In this document: one piece after another, positions 3,728 through 34,495 of the stretch
How the letters are laid out: every line of letters begins with the position of its first letter
How positions within the stretch are numbered: the stretch's first letter is position 1
IMG/VR virus record: IMGVR_UViG_3300042882_000845
Coordinates: 1-35,642 of that record
From: a virus
Strand: one strand, 5' to 3'
Length of the DNA stretch: 35,642 nt
Position numbers and translations under genes: made by a program
Notes under the pieces: generated by a model
Told to the model about the DNA's origin: nothing
The model's database searches: none
The model's input: only the letters and a program-made list of their open reading frames with translations

Positions 3728-4738
3728 CTAGGAGGTCGCGGCGAACTTGGCCAAGCCTTTGGGGTTCATGCAGACGAGCGCGGCGATTGCATCGACGAGC
3801 GCACGCTTGCCTCCACCCATGTCTTCCAACTCTTGGAAGCGGGGGCGGCGGCCATAACGCAGTTCGATCATCTCAGGGCTCATGACATAGCCGCGGGCCA
3901 ACTGAACGGCCGAGGCTTGGTCCTTGGCACAAAATAGTGATGGGACGATATCTAAAATTCCAAAATCGCCATGGAAGCTATCGATAGATGCCACTATTTT
4001 CTTGGACTCAGCGGACTGCGAGAAGGTGCGAACCGAAAGGCCGGCCTTGTTGTCAGTTCCACCCGCAAAGCGAGTGAAATTAGTGAAGGCGCGCTTTAAC
4101 TCGGGGCCACAAACGAGCATGCTGGAGTTCATGGTGCCGGTGACGGTGTACATCGACTGCAACACGGCCTGCACTTCGCTTTCGGTGAGGGAAGCGGTGG
4201 CGGTCGTGTTGATGCTGCCTGACGGTGTGCGGAAGGCCGCAGCAACCGGGAGGTCAGTTTGCGCCGAGGCGTTGATCCAGCTGCCGAGACCGCGGGTGCG
4301 GTAGGGGTTGGTGCTGGCCTGCTCTTGGCTGTCGCGGTCGGAACAGACGGCGGACTCGATGTCGCGCTTCAGTTCAACAAGGCTCTTGGAAACCGAATGA
4401 GCGAATGCCTTGTTTTTGCCGATGCCGGCGATGTCTGAGATTTGGGTGTAATCGTCAACCTTGATCGAGCGGCGGAACTTCATCGCGCGGCCCGAGAGGA
4501 GTGCGCGGCTGGAGCTGGCGTCGTCGAAGGTCGAAACGTCTGCGTTGGTCAGAACGCCGTCAAAGGACGGGTCTTTGTACTCATCGGCCTGCCAGGAGAA
4601 AACTCCGGGGTTGGTGATGTCGGCGCCTTTGCGGGCGGTCGAGGTGACGGGGGTGTTTTTGTTATCAACGATGCTGATAACGTCCGCGAGGTCTTCGCGG
4701 AGGCCCGAAAAATTCGGGAATACTGTGCCTTGTGACAT
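3728..4738 (-). CDS. Major capsid protein (DUF5309/SU10-like)
   Basis: The preferred start is ATG 4738, giving 336 residues. An in-frame start at 4792 would add 18 residues overlapping the scaffold gene and looks spurious. The protein opens with a short N-arm, has a central region with KVDDYTQISDIAGIGK and a C-terminal segment with HGDFGILDIVPSLFC, followed by LRYGRRPRFQELEDMG. This HGDFG..dIVP pattern is characteristic of the DUF5309/SU10-type HK97-fold capsid family. It follows a scaffold-like gene and precedes a decoration-type gene. The product forms the icosahedral shell. No internal cleavage site is evident. Confidence 0.87.
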   Translation of the reverse strand: MSQGTVFPNFSGLREDLADVISIVDNKNTPVTSTARKGADITNPGVFSWQADEYKDPSFDGVLTNADVSTFDDASSSRALLSGRAMKFRRSIKVDDYTQISDIAGIGKNKAFAHSVSKSLVELKRDIESAVCSDRDSQEQASTNPYRTRGLGSWINASAQTDLPVAAAFRTPSGSINTTATASLTESEVQAVLQSMYTVTGTMNSSMLVCGPELKRAFTNFTRFAGGTDNKAGLSVRTFSQSAESKKIVASIDSFHGDFGILDIVPSLFCAKDQASAVQLARGYVMSPEMIELRYGRRPRFQELEDMGGGKRALVDAIAALVCMNPKGLAKFAATS

Positions 4739-4769
4739 GATTGGTTGGTCTTTCTTGTTAGGGTTTTCC

Positions 4770-5777
4770 TTACAAGAGCGCCGCGGAAACAAATGACTCG
4801 ATGTCGTCCATTGAGTCTCCCGTCAGTGCTCTCATTGCGCTTTTTGCGCCTTTGCTACTGGTGGAAGATTTCGTTGCGCTGACCGGGTTGGCGGGAGTTG
4901 GCGTTTTGGCGATTTCTTTGGACGAAGAGACTTTCTTGGCGGCTTTCGCTTTCGCGTCAGCGGCACCTTGCTTGGCCATGAGCGTTTGCTCTCCGAGGAG
5001 AGCTAGTGCGACCCAGTATTCAGCCTGCGGGAGCTTCAGCAGCTCCGGCGCCTGCTTGACCGTGGCGGTGAACGCCTGGTGCATTGGGGTGCCTTTCTTG
5101 AAGATGTCGGGGAACAAGGACTTCGCGGCCTCAAGGGCCGGCTGCCGTTGGGCGAGCCAGTTCTGGCGGGCCGGCGCGTGCAGCGTGAGAACGTCGTCAG
5201 CCTTAATGAGGTAGTTTTTGACCTCGTCGCTGTCCACATAGACCTCAGTGCCGTCCGGTCTACGAACGGTGGCACCGTCCGTGTGACGCAGTGCCCAGCG
5301 GCGGACCTCTTGGGCGCTCTTGATTTTAGCATCAAGTGCCTCCTGGGTATCCACATCGGCCAGCGGGTTGTCGGCCGTGGGGCTAAGGACCGGGCGGGCG
5401 GCTTCATTAAGCTGCGCTTCGTACTCGGCAACCTTGGCCTTGGCCTCCTCCGCTTCTGCGGCTAGGGCTGTGGCCTTTTCCTCGGCGGACTTGCGGGCGG
5501 CGGTGAGCTTATCGATGCGGCGCTGGATCTTCTCCCGCGGCACATCTTCCTCGTCCTCGTCCTGTTCTTCCTTAGCTTCTTCAGCTTCGGAAACATCTTC
5601 AGCCGGATCTTCAGTCTCCGGCTTGTCTTCTTCGTCTTGTGAAAGATCGCTATCGCTTTCTGATGCTTCGCTTTTGTCTGCCTTTGCCGGCTCAGGTGAA
5701 AAACCCAAGTCGCCTAGTGCGGACGCTAAAACATCAACTTCTCCTGCCGATTGATCGGCAACCTTACCTTCCTCCAT
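4770..5777 (-). CDS. Scaffolding protein
   Basis: This 335-residue protein has a very acidic N-terminal third (Asp/Glu runs at about residues 35-85), a long coiled-coil segment (about 85-125; KIQRRIDKLTAARKSAEEKA), a middle region with PLADVDTQEALDAKIKSAQE, and a basic Lys/Ser-rich C-terminus that could contact capsid protein. This layout is typical of phage scaffolding proteins, which template procapsid assembly and then leave. A strong GGGAGG precedes ATG 5777. A hairpin terminator and a possible promoter lie upstream, so capsid-gene expression may be set here. It is immediately upstream of the major capsid gene. Confidence 0.85.
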   Translation of the reverse strand: MEEGKVADQSAGEVDVLASALGDLGFSPEPAKADKSEASESDSDLSQDEEDKPETEDPAEDVSEAEEAKEEQDEDEEDVPREKIQRRIDKLTAARKSAEEKATALAAEAEEAKAKVAEYEAQLNEAARPVLSPTADNPLADVDTQEALDAKIKSAQEVRRWALRHTDGATVRRPDGTEVYVDSDEVKNYLIKADDVLTLHAPARQNWLAQRQPALEAAKSLFPDIFKKGTPMHQAFTATVKQAPELLKLPQAEYWVALALLGEQTLMAKQGAADAKAKAAKKVSSSKEIAKTPTPANPVSATKSSTSSKGAKSAMRALTGDSMDDIESFVSAALL

Positions 5778-6266: not shown

Positions 6267-6470
6267 CTATCGGGCGATTCGTATGCCGCGAAGCAGCTTG
6301 TCGGCGCTGACCACAAATGGCGCGCACTCAATGCAGCACGGCCCGAGTTGCGGGTCGCGCAGCCATTTAGGCGTGAGCGGTCGCTCGCAGACCTGGCACA
6401 AGGGATGGCCGCCGGGGGCACACTTCCAGTCGTCTGGCGGTGGAACTTGGCCCCGGAAGAGCGTAGTCAT
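6267..6470 (-). CDS. Small cysteine-rich, zinc-finger-like protein
   Basis: This 67-residue protein has cysteines arranged as WKC...LCQVC...PCCIEC, which could bind one or two zinc ions. Its start codon overlaps the terminase stop (TAATG), so it is coupled to terminase translation. Small Cys4-type proteins near terminase genes are common in phages, and some are HNH or regulatory proteins; no HNH motif is visible here. Function unknown. Confidence 0.6.
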   Translation of the reverse strand: MTTLFRGQVPPPDDWKCAPGGHPLCQVCERPLTPKWLRDPQLGPCCIECAPFVVSADKLLRGIRIAR

Positions 6471-8098
6471 TAGTAGCTGCCGCCTCCGCGGGACCTCATG
6501 GAGCCGCCGTCGATGAACATGGCGTCGGAGAGGCAGATGTAGCGCAGCACGTCGATGGGGTCTTTGGTCGGAGCCTTTTTGCCATCTGCTCCTGTGTAGG
6601 TCTGCAAAGCGTAGATCGTGTTTTTGCAGTTTTCGCTAATGTACAGGCGCGGCTGGTTGCGGGCGTCTACCGGGAGTTCGGGATTGTATGACAAGGCGTC
6701 GTTGATCATGCCAACGCCCTCGTCAATGCTGTCGCCGGGGGTCGCGGTGAAGAACATGTCAAGGGACGCCATCTCATCGATGAGTGTGGTGGGCGCTTCC
6801 TTACCGAGGGTCTTGGAATGCCCATACCGGCTGTCCATCCAGCGTTCAAAAATGGGCTCGCCGTCCTCAACGCGCAGGATCTCGTCTTTGTAGCGCTGAA
6901 GGCCGAAGCCGAAGTCTTGCATGGCGGGCCCAGGGCGGCCGTCCATGCGCTTGCCGTCTGGGAGCGCCCATTCGCCGGCGTAGCCAACGCCTTCAATGTA
7001 TTCGGTTTGGCTGGGCCATTCGCGGTAGACAATGGTGCGGCCGGCGGGGTCAAAGACGGTCCAGAGCATGAACCAGTTTTTGCCGCTGGCCGGATCGACC
7101 CAATGATACTTAGTGCCGTTCGGTATTTCAGAATGGCGAATGACGTGGACCTTGGGATTGAAGAGCGGGAAGCGGCCGGCGATGGCTTTGGTGGGCACAC
7201 CGTACGCGCGCGTGAGGATTTTCTCCCGGGTCTCGCTTTGCAGCTCGCGTTTCATGCGGGACCATCCGGCCCACGGGTTGCTCTGCGTGTGGAAGTAGAG
7301 GACCGGGCGGCCCTTGGGGTTTATCTGCTCGATGGGCACCTGTTCGTAGCCAACAACCTTGCCCTCGGCGTCTTTCCGCGGCAGCAGCTCGGCGTCAACC
7401 TCCTGCACGTTTTTGGCGCCGTTGAGGTAATCAGCAACGGTGGGCGACCAGCCCTGCACCGGCGTAAAAGTCACGGCCAGCTTGCCGTTGCGGTCAACGA
7501 GGCGGAACCGGAGGGTTTCTAGGACATCAAGCGGCACCAATTCATCGCACCAGCAGGCATCGATCTCGCCGCCTTCGATTGTGGAGGGATCTTGGGCGTA
7601 ATTGCGGAAGATGCAGACCGCCTGGTTAGGCGCAACGAATTTTGCCTCGGTGAAGCCGCCTTTGACGCTGTAGGTGATGTTTGTGACCTGGCCCTTGCGC
7701 GCGTTCCGCCACTCCGGCGGCATGTACTTCCAAATTCGGGGCTGCTGAAGCTCAATGGAGTTCGGAGCCGTGGTTTGAAAGCACCAGACGACCGCGCCGG
7801 GCTTGCTGTACATCGTTTTGATGACCTCCTTGGCCGCCCACTCGGTTTTGCCGGACCTGTTTCCACCCATGACAAGCAATTCGCGGTGCTTTTCCAGCAA
7901 CTCAGACGCTCGGCGCCACACCGGCGGTATGTAGCCGTTGCGGAATGGGTCAGCGGACTCTTGCGCGATGAGTTCTTCGCGCTTTTTGAGGTACGCCCAG
8001 CCGGTCGCGGCGTCAACGGACGCCAAATAGTCATAATCTAGGACCATGACCGGATGCTGTGATGGCGAAAAGCGCCGCTGATGTTCGTTTAGTTCCAT
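6470..8098 (-). CDS. terL: Terminase large subunit
   Basis: This 542-residue protein is the packaging motor. The ATPase domain has a Walker A motif GGNRSGKT at residues 78-85 (Lys84), a Walker B ending in CDE at 184-186, and a later nuclease domain with an Asp in HWVDPASGKNW (Asp335). It uses ATP to drive DNA into the procapsid through the portal and cuts DNA at the start and end of packaging. The start is ATG 8098. Upstream lies a strongly structured segment (8140-8213). Length and motif spacing fit podovirus-type large terminases. The small subunit is not certain: the HTH protein at 15813-16433 is one candidate. Confidence 0.93.
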   Translation of the reverse strand: MELNEHQRRFSPSQHPVMVLDYDYLASVDAATGWAYLKKREELIAQESADPFRNGYIPPVWRRASELLEKHRELLVMGGNRSGKTEWAAKEVIKTMYSKPGAVVWCFQTTAPNSIELQQPRIWKYMPPEWRNARKGQVTNITYSVKGGFTEAKFVAPNQAVCIFRNYAQDPSTIEGGEIDACWCDELVPLDVLETLRFRLVDRNGKLAVTFTPVQGWSPTVADYLNGAKNVQEVDAELLPRKDAEGKVVGYEQVPIEQINPKGRPVLYFHTQSNPWAGWSRMKRELQSETREKILTRAYGVPTKAIAGRFPLFNPKVHVIRHSEIPNGTKYHWVDPASGKNWFMLWTVFDPAGRTIVYREWPSQTEYIEGVGYAGEWALPDGKRMDGRPGPAMQDFGFGLQRYKDEILRVEDGEPIFERWMDSRYGHSKTLGKEAPTTLIDEMASLDMFFTATPGDSIDEGVGMINDALSYNPELPVDARNQPRLYISENCKNTIYALQTYTGADGKKAPTKDPIDVLRYICLSDAMFIDGGSMRSRGGGSY

Positions 8099-17043: not shown

Positions 17044-17153
17044 GGTTTGGTCTTGGTTGAAATGCGCCGGCAGATCGTCAGCAGTGCATCCACAGGGATG
17101 CATGGCCGGGTGCCGTGGTAGTTGCGGGCGGGGAGTTGGCTAGGGACGGTCAT
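17040..17153 (-). CDS. Possible 37-aa protein between MTase and HTH genes
   Basis: ATG 17153 overlaps the methyltransferase stop (ATGA) and the frame ends by overlapping the HTH start. It reads MTVPSQLPARNYHGTRPC and ends in STKTKP. Stop/start overlap on both sides argues for translation. The composition is neutral and nothing is recognised. Confidence 0.5.
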   Translation of the reverse strand: MTVPSQLPARNYHGTRPCIPVDALLTICRRISTKTKP

Positions 17154-18886
17154 GGCTGGTGCTCCATCAGCTCGCTAACGAGAACTCGGAAGGCTCGCTC
17201 TGCGGTGGCAGGCACAACTCCGTTGCCGAGGAGTCGCAAGGAATCTGTGCGGTTTGTGGACGCGCCCATCCAGTGACGAATCTCGGCCAGTTCTTGATCA
17301 CTGAGACCGGACACAGCGGGTCCACCCAACCCATCGGCACTCCCATCAAGCAGCAGACCCAATTCTGGTTTAATTTCCCCGCCTGCGCTCTCTCCACCAT
17401 CGGCGTCAGCTCCTTGTATTGCCGATCCTCGTTGCCTCGGCCGCTCTTGTGGTCGCGGGCTGTTGGCGTGCCCCATTGCTCCTCGCGCCATACCTGAGTT
17501 GCTATCGACTCGCCGCCGCGATTGTCGTTCCAATGCTCCCCATATTCTGGATGCATGGACGCCATCGCGCTGCGGGGCGTTGCCCATTGCTTGGTCACCT
17601 GATGCGTCAGCCCATGGTGCCGCTTGTCCACGCCCATCGGCGGGTTCTGCGCTTCGCAGGCGCGCGGCGTCATCCATTGCTTCACCGCACCCGCTAGATA
17701 AGTCCCCTGATGTCCGTTCGGACCATTGCTCTCCATGTCCGGCGTGTGGGCTGTGATCGTTGGCCACATCTTGGTCGCTTGAGCCAAGCTCATTTGCCGC
17801 GGCAAGCCGTCCGCATTCTTCCAGCTTTGCTGGCTGAAGCTGCCGCCCTGTCTGCCGCCTTGTGATGCTTCCGGCGTTGGCCACTGTTCCGCCTTCGCCT
17901 GACTGCTCAACGTCCCGTGGCAATGCGCCCCGCGATCCGCATTCCTCGCTGCAAAGTTCGGATCGCTGTCCGGCTCGTTGGCCCTTGGTGTCAACCACAA
18001 CCCTTGGCGGCTCCCAAGCGAACTGCTGCTCGCCGGGGCGGCTTGGCCATAGTTGACCATTTCCGACAGCTTGCCGGTGTTCATGCCCTTGCCCCAATGG
18101 CCCTTCGACTCCATCTGCGTGAGGTCTCGCGTTGGCGTGATCACGTCCATGCAGTTCGGCGTTGGCCATTGCTTGATCACCGCAGTCGTCAGCGATTCCT
18201 GCGAACCCTTCATGCCCCGCGAGCGATCTTGAAAGCCCTGACGCACCTCGCTGGCGCAGACTGTCGGCCAATTCTGATGCACCGCTTCCTTGAGATTGCT
18301 CTTGTAGGTCTTGCCAGTGCCGTCGATCCGATTGAGCGGCGTATTGTTGAAGTCGAACGCCGTTGCGGTGGGCCAGGATAAAGATCCTTTTCCGCTGGTG
18401 AGGCGCGCCGCATTCACTCGCTGACGCCACGCACCACGTCGTTCTGTAACCCATTCCTGCCAAGTCTTGCAGCACGTCGGGAAGCCCCATCGAGACATGT
18501 CCGTCGACGTTTTCAAAGAAACAGACACCTGGTCGCATTGCAGCAATTCCGGCTGCAATAAATGGCCAGAGGTGTCTGGGGTCTTCGGCTCCGAGGCGTT
18601 TGCCAGCGGCTGAGAACGGCTGGCACGGGTAGCCGCCAGAGAGGATGTCCACGCAGCCGTGAAACTCGGCCCATGGGAAGGTTTTAAGGTCCGTCCAAAT
18701 AGGAGCTGGGTCCAAGAGTCCCGCTTCCATTTTAGAGACCAAGTTCGCGCAGGCGAAGGCTTCGATCTCACTAAAAGCGATTGTGCGCAGGCTTGGGATT
18801 GCTCGGCTAAGTCCGAGATCAATGCCTCCGTATCCGGCACAAAGGCTGACGTGTGTAACTGGCGAGGCAGAATCCACATGGCTCAT
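17150..18886 (-). CDS. Cytosine-C5 DNA methyltransferase
   Basis: This 578-residue protein contains the canonical C5-MTase motifs: I (SLCAGYGGIDLG, about 14-25), IV with the catalytic cysteine (GGYPCQPFS, Cys88), VI (FENVDG, 124-129), VIII (QRKRIF, 164-169) and X (GNGVVPATAERAF, about 554-566). The long middle region (about 180-540) serves as the target-recognition part; it is unusually Ala/Gly/Asp/Arg-rich with recurring AMANA/AMGNA/AMGHAN-like segments. The enzyme methylates cytosine in a sequence-specific way, probably protecting phage DNA from restriction. The gene is overlapped almost end to end by a second open frame (17167-18879). Confidence 0.9.
   Translation of the reverse strand: MSHVDSASPVTHVSLCAGYGGIDLGLSRAIPSLRTIAFSEIEAFACANLVSKMEAGLLDPAPIWTDLKTFPWAEFHGCVDILSGGYPCQPFSAAGKRLGAEDPRHLWPFIAAGIAAMRPGVCFFENVDGHVSMGLPDVLQDLAGMGYRTTWCVASASECGAPHQRKRIFILAHRNGVRLQQYAAQSDRRHWQDLQEQSQGSGASELADSLRQRGASGLSRSLAGHEGFAGIADDCGDQAMANAELHGRDHANARPHADGVEGPLGQGHEHRQAVGNGQLWPSRPGEQQFAWEPPRVVVDTKGQRAGQRSELCSEECGSRGALPRDVEQSGEGGTVANAGSITRRQTGRQLQPAKLEECGRLAAANELGSSDQDVANDHSPHAGHGEQWSERTSGDLSSGCGEAMDDAARLRSAEPADGRGQAAPWADASGDQAMGNAPQRDGVHASRIWGALERQSRRRVDSNSGMARGAMGHANSPRPQERPRQRGSAIQGADADGGESAGGEIKPELGLLLDGSADGLGGPAVSGLSDQELAEIRHWMGASTNRTDSLRLLGNGVVPATAERAFRVLVSELMEHQP
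17167..18879 (-). CDS. Co-extensive 570-codon frame overlapping the methyltransferase
   Basis: A second frame, shifted +1 against the methyltransferase, starts at ATG 18879 (7 nt after its ATG) and stays open for 570 codons. It carries about nine recurring W-x-T motifs (KQWPTPNC, WPTPEAS, KQWMTPRAC, KQWATPRS, QWGTPTARD) and near its end LNQNWV and LMGVPMGWVDP. The WPTPTA-type repeat plus a LxPxWVxxLMGxPxGW ending is a pattern I recall in phage-encoded proteins, many annotated as methyltransferases or hypothetical. That recollection cannot be checked here. Either an overprinted protein or a compositional shadow; the open length favours constraint. Confidence 0.5.
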   Translation of the reverse strand: MWILPRQLHTSAFVPDTEALISDLAEQSQACAQSLLVRSKPSPARTWSLKWKRDSWTQLLFGRTLKPSHGPSFTAAWTSSLAATRASRSQPLANASEPKTPDTSGHLLQPELLQCDQVSVSLKTSTDMSRWGFPTCCKTWQEWVTERRGAWRQRVNAARLTSGKGSLSWPTATAFDFNNTPLNRIDGTGKTYKSNLKEAVHQNWPTVCASEVRQGFQDRSRGMKGSQESLTTAVIKQWPTPNCMDVITPTRDLTQMESKGHWGKGMNTGKLSEMVNYGQAAPASSSSLGSRQGLWLTPRANEPDSDPNFAARNADRGAHCHGTLSSQAKAEQWPTPEASQGGRQGGSFSQQSWKNADGLPRQMSLAQATKMWPTITAHTPDMESNGPNGHQGTYLAGAVKQWMTPRACEAQNPPMGVDKRHHGLTHQVTKQWATPRSAMASMHPEYGEHWNDNRGGESIATQVWREEQWGTPTARDHKSGRGNEDRQYKELTPMVERAQAGKLNQNWVCCLMGVPMGWVDPLCPVSVIKNWPRFVTGWARPQTAQIPCDSSATELCLPPQSEPSEFSLAS

Positions 18887-19029
18887 GCGTCCTCCTCAAC
18901 CAGCCCCTCAAGCACTGGGTCAAAGGGAATGCCAAGCCGGCCGCACGCATCCTCAGCGGCATTCCAAATGTCAGCCTCACGCTGCTCGTCACAGCACCGG
19001 TCGTCCGGGTCTCCGAGTTCGTAGCTCAT
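18883..19029 (-). CDS. Small acidic protein (48 aa)
   Basis: The frame from ATG 19029 reads MSYELGDPDDRCCDEQREAD and ends in LVEEDA, overlapping the methyltransferase ATG (ATGA). It is short and acidic with a CC pair. Start and stop overlaps on both sides indicate a true gene in the early chain. Not recognised. Confidence 0.55.
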   Translation of the reverse strand: MSYELGDPDDRCCDEQREADIWNAAEDACGRLGIPFDPVLEGLVEEDA

Positions 19030-21853: not shown

Positions 21854-22948
21854 TTAATCCGGCAGCTCCACCCGCTGATCCATCGTAGCGTAGTGCCGCT
21901 CAGTCGTTGAGCTGGTGGTGTGACCCAAGAACCGCGACACGGTCGAGATCCGGCCGGTGGCGTTGAGCAGGTCGCTGCCCGCCTGCTTCCGCAGACAGTA
22001 GAGCAAGTCCTTGCGCCCGGGCAGGAACTCCCGCAGCCAGTTGTTCATGATGCGCATGCACCAGTTGTGCCGTGTGTACGTTGTCCCTCCGGGCACCATG
22101 TAGTCGTCAGCCTCCAGCAGCTCCGCGGCGACCGCATCGGGGAGCACAATCTGCCGCTGCCGCCGCGATCCGGTCTTGAGCGTGAAGCCCTCGTCCGGCC
22201 GCTGTACAAGTAGCAGCTCATGCTTGCCGCCCCGCTTTTCGATCCAGCCCTTCCGGCACGCCGCAATTTCAGTTGGCGTCATGCCGCAGCGGCGAGCCAG
22301 CAGGAACGCCCTGCGAATCCCGCCGCCGGCCAGCTTGCTCTTCTCCTCTAGGGTTGCCAGCACGTCCGCGGTGAGGGGAACAAAGGCATCGAGGTTCGCC
22401 CGGATGCCGGTCTTGGCGGTCGCATCGCGGAACTCGGCGAGGTCCGGCAAGTCAAAGCCCTCCCAGTCATTCGCCCGGCAGAAGACCGCGCGGCCCATGG
22501 CGAGGTTGGTCTTCTGCGAGGCCGGCGCCAGCTGCGTCTTGCGCAGGAAGTCGGAGACCAGCTTCCGGTTGAGGCGGGTGAGGGGAAGCGCGCGGAGTTT
22601 CTCTCGGTCAGTCACGCCCAGGCCGTCCCGCAGGACAACCAGCAGTGCGTTGACGTTGTCCTTGCGGGAATCTACCTTGCTTGTCTGCAAGTAATGATCG
22701 CACGCCGCACCAATCGATTCGGAGGAAGTCTTCCGGGTGAAGTCCTTGAGGGCGCCCAGCCCTTCGGTCGCCGTCTGCTCAAGAATGGCTTTCGCCTTGG
22801 CCTTGGCCATCGACAGGTCCGAGGTAGCCAGGCTAATGCGTTGCCGCTCCATCGAGGATGGGTGTCGAAAGTGCAATCGGTAGAACGGCGAGGCGCCGAT
22901 CTTGTGGAGTGTTCCGGTCAGTCCTCGGTGCTTAATGGTGGTGTCCAT
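21854..22948 (-). CDS. int: Tyrosine recombinase / integrase
   Basis: ATG 22948 gives 364 residues; the longer TTG start at 22957 is less likely. A core-binding domain (about 70-175) is followed by a catalytic domain with box I RRCGMTPTEIAAC (about 219-231), beta-strand Lys258 (TLKTGSRR), LLYCLRKQ with Arg320, LGHTTSSTT with His343, and nucleophile Tyr353 (RHYATMD). The usual first catalytic Arg (G-[LMI]-R) is Thr224, and the His of the H-x-x-R motif is Cys318, so two of the conserved catalytic residues are replaced. It lies directly beside the attP site (22991-23206). Confidence 0.88.
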   Translation of the reverse strand: MDTTIKHRGLTGTLHKIGASPFYRLHFRHPSSMERQRISLATSDLSMAKAKAKAILEQTATEGLGALKDFTRKTSSESIGAACDHYLQTSKVDSRKDNVNALLVVLRDGLGVTDREKLRALPLTRLNRKLVSDFLRKTQLAPASQKTNLAMGRAVFCRANDWEGFDLPDLAEFRDATAKTGIRANLDAFVPLTADVLATLEEKSKLAGGGIRRAFLLARRCGMTPTEIAACRKGWIEKRGGKHELLLVQRPDEGFTLKTGSRRQRQIVLPDAVAAELLEADDYMVPGGTTYTRHNWCMRIMNNWLREFLPGRKDLLYCLRKQAGSDLLNATGRISTVSRFLGHTTSSTTERHYATMDQRVELPD

Positions 22949-22990
22949 GCGCAGCAATATGCGGCCGCCCGCGGGCTCTTGTCAACCGAC

Positions 22991-32494: not shown

Positions 32495-34495
32495 TTAAGC
32501 TGCGTGACGTGTTTCGGTTTGCGGGAGGCTAGGGATGGCGGCCTCAATTGAGATGTTGCGGATCTCCGGCCGGTTGGCGTTGGTTAGGATTTCCAGCTCG
32601 CAGTAGTGAGCCTTGGCCCGGATCGGCAACTTCAAGCTGTAGTCGTTGCCGGAGCCTGTGGTGTTTTCCAGCCCGGGCACCAAGAGTTCGGTCTTGTCTG
32701 GGTTGCGCAGGTTGGCCGTCACGGTGATGGACCCGGTGTTGGGCAGCACGGCGTCAGCCAGGGCGCGGGTGAAGCGCTTGCTGCTCATCGTCCCCATGCC
32801 GTAGCGGCGCGTGCGGATCTTGCCGGGCACCGCGATGGTGCGGTTGGCCTCAGCGTCCGCAGACTCGTCGCCTGCCTCGACCTCGTCCATGAGCATCAGC
32901 TTGCCGGCTTGGCTGCTGATCATTACGCGGCGACGGTCAGCGATGTCGGCGACCAAGAAGTCGTTGACGCCCACGCCGTAGATGTCGCGGGTCTCCCAAG
33001 CCTGGTTAAGTTGGTTGTAGATAAAGACTCCGTTGTTGCTGCCTTTGCTCGTAGACAGGGGAACGGCGAGGAAGTAGCGGTTGTCGAAATACAGTGCCGT
33101 GGCGTACTCAACGAGGTCAGCCCGCAGTCCTTGCAGCTGGTCGGCGATGGGGTCGCTCAATGGCTTGGTCTCGCCGCGGAGCTTGAGGTCCAGCTTGGTG
33201 TCCAGCCGGTAGACGCCGGAGTCGGAGAGGAAATAGATAAACTGGCCGGCCGTGCAGATCGTCCGGCGGGCCGCGCAGCCGATCTCGTCGGTCAGCAGGT
33301 CGAGGCGGGTGACTGCGGTGTTGATCGCAACATCGCTGCCGTCCACCGCCGAGGTTTGCGAGATGGTAGCAATCCAGATGCTTTTGCGGCAGAAGACCAA
33401 GACCGCGTTGTCCACCCAGGGATGCACGGCCACGATCTTGTCGTTGCCGCCAACGCCAACCCGGAAGGACTGCCAGAAATTGTCAAAAACATCTGGGTCA
33501 AGCACATCGCTGAGCATGACGTTCTGCTTGCCGTCAGGGATGACCAGGCGGTTGCCGATGTAGTTGCCCCAAGGCGCCGAGCGGAGGCGCCGGAAGGTCA
33601 CGCCAACGTCTGGGACGCCAGCCGTGGAACGGACAAAGCCAGTGGCAGGGTCGCCGGCCCAGTAAAGCGGAGCCTTGACCCGTCGCACCTTGATGTTGGC
33701 CGAGGAGTCCGAGGGTGTGCCGGTCGGGACGGCGATGGTGAAATCGTTGGCGTTGAGGCTGGCAGCCTCGACTTGAAACTCATGCCCATCGAAGGCCGCG
33801 CTGCTGCTTCCCTCGATGCGCACGCGGGCGCCGGCGGGGTAGCCGTGGTCGGTCACATAGACTGTGGCGACCGTTCCGGCGACTGAGATGCCGCTCGCCG
33901 TGGTGTACTTTTGCTCGTAGCCGGCCTGCGTGGCGTCGGCCTCGCGGAAGAGGTACATGCGGTCAAACGCCTGCACCATCGATACGTTGTCCGAGGGCTG
34001 CACGCTTTCGCCGGAGGGGTAGGTGATCGAAGAGGGGAGGCGAGCGATGACCAGCTCTTCGCCGCTGCCGAGGTCAAGGTTGTTGTCGTTGTCTACGGCG
34101 AGCACTCCGCTGGCCCAGGCGGCTGAGAACTGAAGGCTGCCGTCCGTCAGGTAGACGTAGGCTCGGTCAGCGGCTGCCAGCAGGGTGACCTCCATGCTGT
34201 TGGCCTCGTCCGGCGAGCGCATGACGGACGCTGCGAAGATGCCGCCATCGTAGCTATTGCGGACGATGGGGCCGGGATCGGTAAAGACGAAGGGCACAGT
34301 CAGCGGCACCTCGCCCGGCGAAATGTCGTCAGCCAGCCGCTTGAGCCCGCGCCTTGTCACGGCCACGCCGCGGTCAAGCCGCATGTTCTCGCTGAGTTGG
34401 AGCATGCCAGCGGGCAAGGTGACAGGGTTCATTCGGCTGGAGTAGCCGATGAATCCCATGTCGCCGTCGCGCTGGACTGGACTTTCAAGGGACAT
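32495..34495 (-). CDS. Tail nozzle or tubular protein (gp12/gp10-like)
   Basis: This 666-residue, beta-rich protein has N-terminal SRMNPVTLPAGMLQLSENMR then LDRGVAVTRRGLKRLAD, a start like the stabilising/nozzle proteins of short-tailed phages. Repeated strand motifs follow (RVRIEGSSSAAFDGHEFQVE; HPWVDNAVLVFCRKSIWIAT) suggesting a beta-propeller. Such proteins close the portal and form the DNA-ejection tube. The ATG sits one base past the stop of the small tail-associated gene. Assignment is by general resemblance. Confidence 0.65.
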   Translation of the reverse strand: MSLESPVQRDGDMGFIGYSSRMNPVTLPAGMLQLSENMRLDRGVAVTRRGLKRLADDISPGEVPLTVPFVFTDPGPIVRNSYDGGIFAASVMRSPDEANSMEVTLLAAADRAYVYLTDGSLQFSAAWASGVLAVDNDNNLDLGSGEELVIARLPSSITYPSGESVQPSDNVSMVQAFDRMYLFREADATQAGYEQKYTTASGISVAGTVATVYVTDHGYPAGARVRIEGSSSAAFDGHEFQVEAASLNANDFTIAVPTGTPSDSSANIKVRRVKAPLYWAGDPATGFVRSTAGVPDVGVTFRRLRSAPWGNYIGNRLVIPDGKQNVMLSDVLDPDVFDNFWQSFRVGVGGNDKIVAVHPWVDNAVLVFCRKSIWIATISQTSAVDGSDVAINTAVTRLDLLTDEIGCAARRTICTAGQFIYFLSDSGVYRLDTKLDLKLRGETKPLSDPIADQLQGLRADLVEYATALYFDNRYFLAVPLSTSKGSNNGVFIYNQLNQAWETRDIYGVGVNDFLVADIADRRRVMISSQAGKLMLMDEVEAGDESADAEANRTIAVPGKIRTRRYGMGTMSSKRFTRALADAVLPNTGSITVTANLRNPDKTELLVPGLENTTGSGNDYSLKLPIRAKAHYCELEILTNANRPEIRNISIEAAIPSLPQTETRHAA

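Follow-up and report, generated by a model that had tools for sequence, protein, structure and literature searches.

A phage gene open in two frames most likely encodes both chains of one C5-cytosine DNA methyltransferase

Does a methyltransferase gene that is open from end to end in a second frame encode two proteins, or do base composition and repeats keep the second frame open? This question is raised by IMG/VR record IMGVR_UViG_3300042882_000845, a virus record of 35,642 bases that was analysed over its whole length (henceforth referred to as the window). Two open reading frames lie on its minus strand and overlap almost wholly: M, the methyltransferase frame, and W, in the +1 frame of M (Table 1). 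A sequence-only reading of this DNA had described W as running without a stop for 570 codons (17167-18879) from an ATG located 7 nt downstream of the M ATG at 18886, and both frames were found where it had placed them. PHROG matches to a major head protein (3728-4792), a scaffold protein (4770-5777), a terminase large subunit (6470-8098) and an integrase (21854-22957), all on the minus strand, establish that the window belongs to a tailed phage, which, given the integrase, is probably temperate. Elsewhere in the window a 426-aa frame (32606-33886, plus strand) lies opposite a 666-aa frame (32495-34495, minus strand), which might be another open frame or reflect composition only.

Searches of viral contigs returned at least 258 relatives with W as the query, at least 500 with an alignment of W, and 28 with M. 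In each of the 109 sequences that were compared, namely 108 loci plus the window, W was read in +1 relative to M, with overlaps mostly of 0.9-1.7 kb. We shuffled codons among synonymous positions, keeping one of the two proteins, and counted stops in the other frames. In 101 distinct W genes found by W alone, 2 stops were observed in the M frame where 1112 were expected, and the third frame contained 1617 against 1619 expected; reciprocally, 22 M genes found by M alone contained no W-frame stops against 98 expected, with 296 against 297 in the third frame. A first version of the test, applied to the catalytic part of 69 genes with an intact M, gave 0 W-frame stops against 168 expected. For the window itself, shuffling with the M protein kept gave a probability of W-frame openness of ~0.12 for the N part times 0.005 for the middle, and shuffling with the W protein kept predicted ~13 M-frame stops, of which none was seen. 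The alternative that the second frame is held open by chance draws on the G+C content of the region (~60%) and on its internal DNA repeats. However, the third frame, which acts as a built-in control, contained the stops that chance predicts while M and W contained almost none, and therefore composition and repeats do not explain the open frames; stops were also depleted in bacterial loci of less than 50% G+C (13 against 47 expected), and it is in the W frame that the middle part shows conservation. Chance openness was thus rejected by the stop and substitution tests, and we consider its probability negligible. The openness of the two frames is not due to chance, and the gene is a real, conserved two-frame gene. 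Rare viral members (L050, L062 and L197) contain a stop or frameshift in the M frame, which could represent assembly errors or decay, and in L062 the W modules are joined to M-type sequence in one frame.

Position-specific substitution rates indicated which frame is selected in which part of the gene. For gene pairs of 75-90% identity, the first, second and third M codon positions had mismatch rates of 0.17, 0.09 and 0.31 in the N part and 0.17, 0.06 and 0.35 in the C part, as is usual for a gene coding in M. The corresponding rates for the middle part were 0.26, 0.10 and 0.11, and because M position 1 is W position 3, this is the pattern of W-coding sequence; the counts pool related, non-independent pairs, and the contrast was large in all three identity bands. 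Along the window the selected frame alternates M-W-M-W-M (Table 1). Homologues with many stops in the second frame, or conservation confined to the methyltransferase frame, had been named as findings that would speak against a second protein; instead, the second frame stays open and the middle of the gene is conserved in it. Overall, the stop counts, the substitution rates and the 109 loci bear out the proposal that the region encodes two proteins and that this arrangement recurs across phages.

Table 1. Positions of the two frames, their start region, the selected segments and the W-chain elements in the window
Feature	Position	Strand	Basis or remark
M frame: C5-cytosine DNA methyltransferase subunit (alpha-like; motifs I-VIII and X)	17150..18886	-	578 aa; PF00145, PHROG methyltransferase families including C-terminal motif X
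W frame (+1 of M): putative second subunit (beta-like; target-recognition modules and motif IX-like LMGVPMGW)	17167..18879	-	570 aa; phrog_1008, viral relatives, conserved +1 placement
Shine-Dalgarno-like AGGAGG upstream of M and W starts	18891..18896	-	read from sequence
ATGTG dual start: W ATG (18879-18877) and conserved M GTG (18877-18875)	18875..18879	-	conservation of start DNA in the family
First W codons, WILPRQLH, W-selected	18853..18876	-	synonymous versus nonsynonymous differences in the family
M-selected segment: catalytic domain, motifs I-VIII; W kept open	18371..18853	-	M position 3 most variable; W-frame stops 0 against 168 expected
W-selected segment: WPTP modules 1-3 (part)	18074..18370	-	M position 1 (W position 3) most variable
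M-selected anchor around WPSRPGEQQFAWEPPRVV, a short WPxRPG segment	17954..18073	-	substitution rates; counterpart between IX and X in L140, L141 and L122 (grouped as single-frame for this comparison; L141 and L122 otherwise class as split, M ending after VIII)
W-selected segment: modules 4-9 and motif IX-like element	17294..17953	-	substitution rates
M-selected C-terminus with motif X (RLLGNGVVPATAERAF)	17153..17293	-	PHROG matches and substitution rates
Nine tandem W modules, each starting W-x-T-x	17374..18375	-	for every module, relatives occur in other phages, where their place in the series varies
LNQNWVCCLMGVPMGW, motif IX-like element of W	17326..17373	-	collinear with M.HhaI motif IX via L186; in frame with I-VIII and X in L140, L176 and L186

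The DNA at the start of the two frames is conserved across the family as ATGTGGATACTACCAAARCAATTACACAC or ATGACATGGATAC.... Of the family start sites, 72 belong to the ATGTGG class; in 45 of these no in-frame ATG precedes the GTG that overlaps the W ATG, so that this GTG is the first M start, and in 31 a Shine-Dalgarno-like core lies at most 20 nt away. An M frame opening with the ATG at 18886, as first described, is present in the window, but across the family the GTG at 18877, which overlaps the W ATG, is probably the conserved M start. Codon differences in the DNA preceding motif I (70 distinct segments) were overwhelmingly synonymous when read in W (4384 synonymous versus 462 nonsynonymous) and overwhelmingly nonsynonymous when the same DNA was read in M (466 versus 5614). 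Selection thus acts on the first codons as W protein (WILPKQLH in the family, MWILPKQLH with the start), which fixes the W start.

We then considered what the two chains encode. M residues 12-189 match PF00145 (E 4.7e-33), a catalytic domain with PCQPFS and FFENV, and a Pfam search of M beyond residue 189 gave no match. Motif X (RLLGNGVVPATAERAF) was recognised near the end of M by weak matches to phrog_1008 and phrog_10223, together with M-frame selection; the target-recognition domain and motif IX are absent from the M chain, and a motif IX-like element sits in the W frame. W matches phrog_1008, labelled DNA methyltransferase, with an E value of 2.3e-25. The recurrence of W-x-T repeats in W, noticed in the sequence-only reading, proved to reflect nine tandem WPTP-type modules, and its LMGVPMGW ending is an element conserved in relatives (family form LMGxPxGW, within LNPxWVExLMGxPxGW). 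Across the family, W proteins contain 1-9 WPTP-type modules with a median length of 36 aa, which a rough similarity cut groups into ~127 families; the place of a given module in the series varies from phage to phage. At L099 (3002-4891) a W frame of 630 aa continues past its first LNPRWVEVLMGLPVGW-like element with a further module block and another such element.

W gave no match to Pfam or NCBIfam, and this result bears on the possibility that W is a homing endonuclease concealed as an insertion within the methylase gene. There is a precedent in the ShiLan domain, an HNH domain that is likewise hidden out of frame, as a second protein, in a phage methylase and leaves the methylase frame open (PMC11855218). 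The ShiLan HNH domain, however, is a mobile 195-aa insertion in the third frame, whereas W covers the whole gene and, by family search, is not a nuclease; moreover, parts of W are found in frame in methyltransferases. An HNH insertion was rejected on the grounds that W has no HNH domain match in Pfam or NCBIfam and the overlap is not an insertion, and we give this explanation practically no weight.

Bacterial relatives, which are spread over many phyla, were informative about how the two chains relate to each other. Of 74 bacterial pairs, W was read in +1 relative to M in 69, some of these being repeated copies in one genome, and both lay in one frame in the other five. In L140 (Pelosinus) a single chain contains motifs I-VIII, three WPTP modules, LNPDWVECLMGFPIGW, a WPG...QYDYEPPR segment and motif X, and L164 resembles it up to the contig end, which cuts the gene. 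L176 and L186 have LNPDWVEWLMGFPxGW followed by motif X in frame, and in L141 and L122 M ends after motif VIII and W contains the modules, IX and X. Across the N domain, the W frame is interrupted by 6, 4 and 2 stops in the single-frame loci L164, L176 and L186, which act as negative controls; in most other bacterial loci the W frame is open for ~100 codons upstream of motif VIII. Since some bacterial relatives have I-VIII, WPTP modules, LNPDWVECLMGFPIGW and X in one frame, W is most likely the missing recognition and motif IX part of the same enzyme. L140, L141, L122, L176 and L186 can be arranged as a series of one-frame methyltransferase, AquI-like split and nested overlap. The closest cellular relatives by W (L113-L116) are from Verrucomicrobiota (Pedosphaera, Geminisphaera and Opitutae), which gives a weak indication of the hosts that the phage group infects, and a single uncultured Roseovarius chromosome contains five W/M loci (L135-L139). 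We found phrog_1008 in 4 of 299 sampled bacterial genomes of one phylum and in 17 of 299 of another. With W as the query, tblastn of cultured phages matched Phage C75C1 only and a search of plasmids gave no match; a compact bacterial W matched 127 phage and 7 plasmid records, with compact relatives in Paenibacillus, Mycobacterium, Escherichia, Pseudomonas, Lactobacillus, Klebsiella and Porphyromonas phages. The two nested frames of Escherichia phage K1H, like those of Paenibacillus phage Toothless, both carry the annotation DNA methyltransferase.

We therefore favour, with a probability of roughly 0.85, the explanation that the region encodes one C5-cytosine methyltransferase written in two frames, whose two full-length chains would assemble into one enzyme. 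The M chain would provide the catalytic and cofactor motifs I-VIII and X, and would contain neither a recognition domain nor motif IX; the second chain would be made in the +1 frame from a W AUG that overlaps the M start or sits a few bases away; and the middle of the W chain would provide tandem target-recognition-like modules followed by the motif IX-like element. We infer that M and W assemble into an active methyltransferase, as in M.EcoHK31I, and that the part of each chain that is out of selection serves as a tolerated linker. The W modules would probably set which DNA sequences get methylated, and methylation would probably protect phage DNA against several host restriction enzymes. A more specific proposal, the odds of which we consider even, is that this is a combinatorial family in which phages shuffle ~36-aa W cassettes, each bound to stay open in both frames and providing a recognition unit for W as well as an open linker for M; one two-frame gene would then yield a multispecific heterodimer.

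The alternation of the selected frame, and the existence of single-chain relatives with the same parts, could also be accommodated by programmed ribosomal frameshifting, in which translation starts in M, shifts to W for the modules and motif IX and returns to M for motif X, yielding one continuous enzyme. However, such a mechanism does not need W to be open across the N domain (0 stops against 168 expected), M to be open through the modules or the W start to be conserved, and five segments would require four shifts; we therefore regard frameshifting as improbable.

Structural comparisons bear on the role of W. In a PDB sequence search with L186 we obtained a collinear alignment to M.HhaI that places LNPDWVEWLMGFPIGW on HhaI KLHPRECARVMGYPDSY (motif IX), this stretch contributing 3 bits only; a profile of the IX-X segment against the PDB gave nothing significant and found no methyltransferase, and a PDB sequence search with W gave nothing relevant. 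The assignment of the W element as motif IX, based on its position and this weak pairwise alignment, is thus a putative one. AlphaFold gave a poor model of W alone (pLDDT 52, pTM 0.20), and a single-chain model of L140 built from a composite alignment had a confident catalytic domain matching M.HhaI and a module region with pLDDT <50, so that the recognition role is without structural support. That W alone gave no reliable predicted fold, and that its motif IX-like segment has no significant profile match to solved methyltransferases, would be consistent with W being an independent overprinted protein outside the methyltransferase, for example an anti-restriction or regulatory factor. Yet the single chain of L140 contains the same modules and the LNPDWVE element, in frame, after motif VIII and before motif X (that of L164 does so up to the contig end), the M chain has no motif IX and phrog_1008 is annotated as DNA methyltransferase, and for these reasons we judge an independent W to be very improbable.

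A split methyltransferase written in two frames would matter in several respects. The locus is a same-strand overlap of ~1.7 kb, with both frames kept in more than 100 phages; shorter versions occur in bacteria from many phyla. In our judgement, few protein-coding overlaps known in prokaryotes would be as long or as widespread. Annotation pipelines usually keep one frame, and half of the enzyme is consequently missed. The family offers a natural test of two proteins sharing one DNA stretch, with single-frame relatives as controls, and may be a source of modular methylation specificities for phages against restriction.

Finally, we compared the locus with known systems. Very few studied enzymes have such an arrangement, which here is conserved across many unrelated phages and bacteria. 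In M.EcoHK31I, the gene for the large chain also encodes the small one, in an alternative frame, and here too (in the window, 109 viral loci and 69 bacterial pairs) the second chain lies in an overlapping alternative frame. M.EcoHK31I (YGGCCR) needs two polypeptides, of which the large has motifs I-VIII and X, as well as the predicted recognition domain, and the small has motif IX only; artificial fragments of other C5 methyltransferases also reassemble (PMC3404938). Set beside M.EcoHK31I by description, our system would have, as judged from position and from single-chain relatives, the same distribution of I-VIII and X in one chain and a putative motif IX in the other, for which the profile of the IX-X segment gave no significant match. 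Unlike M.EcoHK31I, the overlap extends over approximately the whole gene, the starts are a few nt apart, W has up to nine tandem modules and the recognition region apparently lies in W. M.AquI (CYCGRG) is also a split C5 methyltransferase, and its second chain contains the distal recognition region and motif IX (PMC3404938). It likewise consists of two chains, and bacterial L141 and L122 resemble it in having the target-recognition domain, IX and X in W; in contrast, the window keeps motif X in M and its chains overlap along their whole length. The multispecific C5 methyltransferases of phages SPR, phi3T, rho11 and H2 are single-chain, single-frame enzymes. Like them, W carries modules in series (1-9, exchanged between phages), with a putative recognition role, but here the series lies in another frame and another chain. 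Works in the reference lists of two papers describe, by their titles, phage enzymes of this type with several target-recognizing domains in series (PMC8936443, PMC12707154). The K1H and Toothless pairs also have a W-type protein nested in the +1 frame of a C5 methyltransferase, but they are compact, with W starting inside M and few modules. In literature searches on overlapping methyltransferase genes we found no description of this two-frame family beyond M.EcoHK31I, M.AquI and ShiLan. The earlier suggestion of a new kind of overprinted gene gives way to a more conservative one: with W most likely the recognition and motif IX part of the same enzyme, M.EcoHK31I as a precedent and the K1H and Toothless pairs already annotated, the locus is most likely a variant of the overlapping-frame split C5 methyltransferases, distinguished by its whole-length overlap, near-coincident starts and exchangeable modules.
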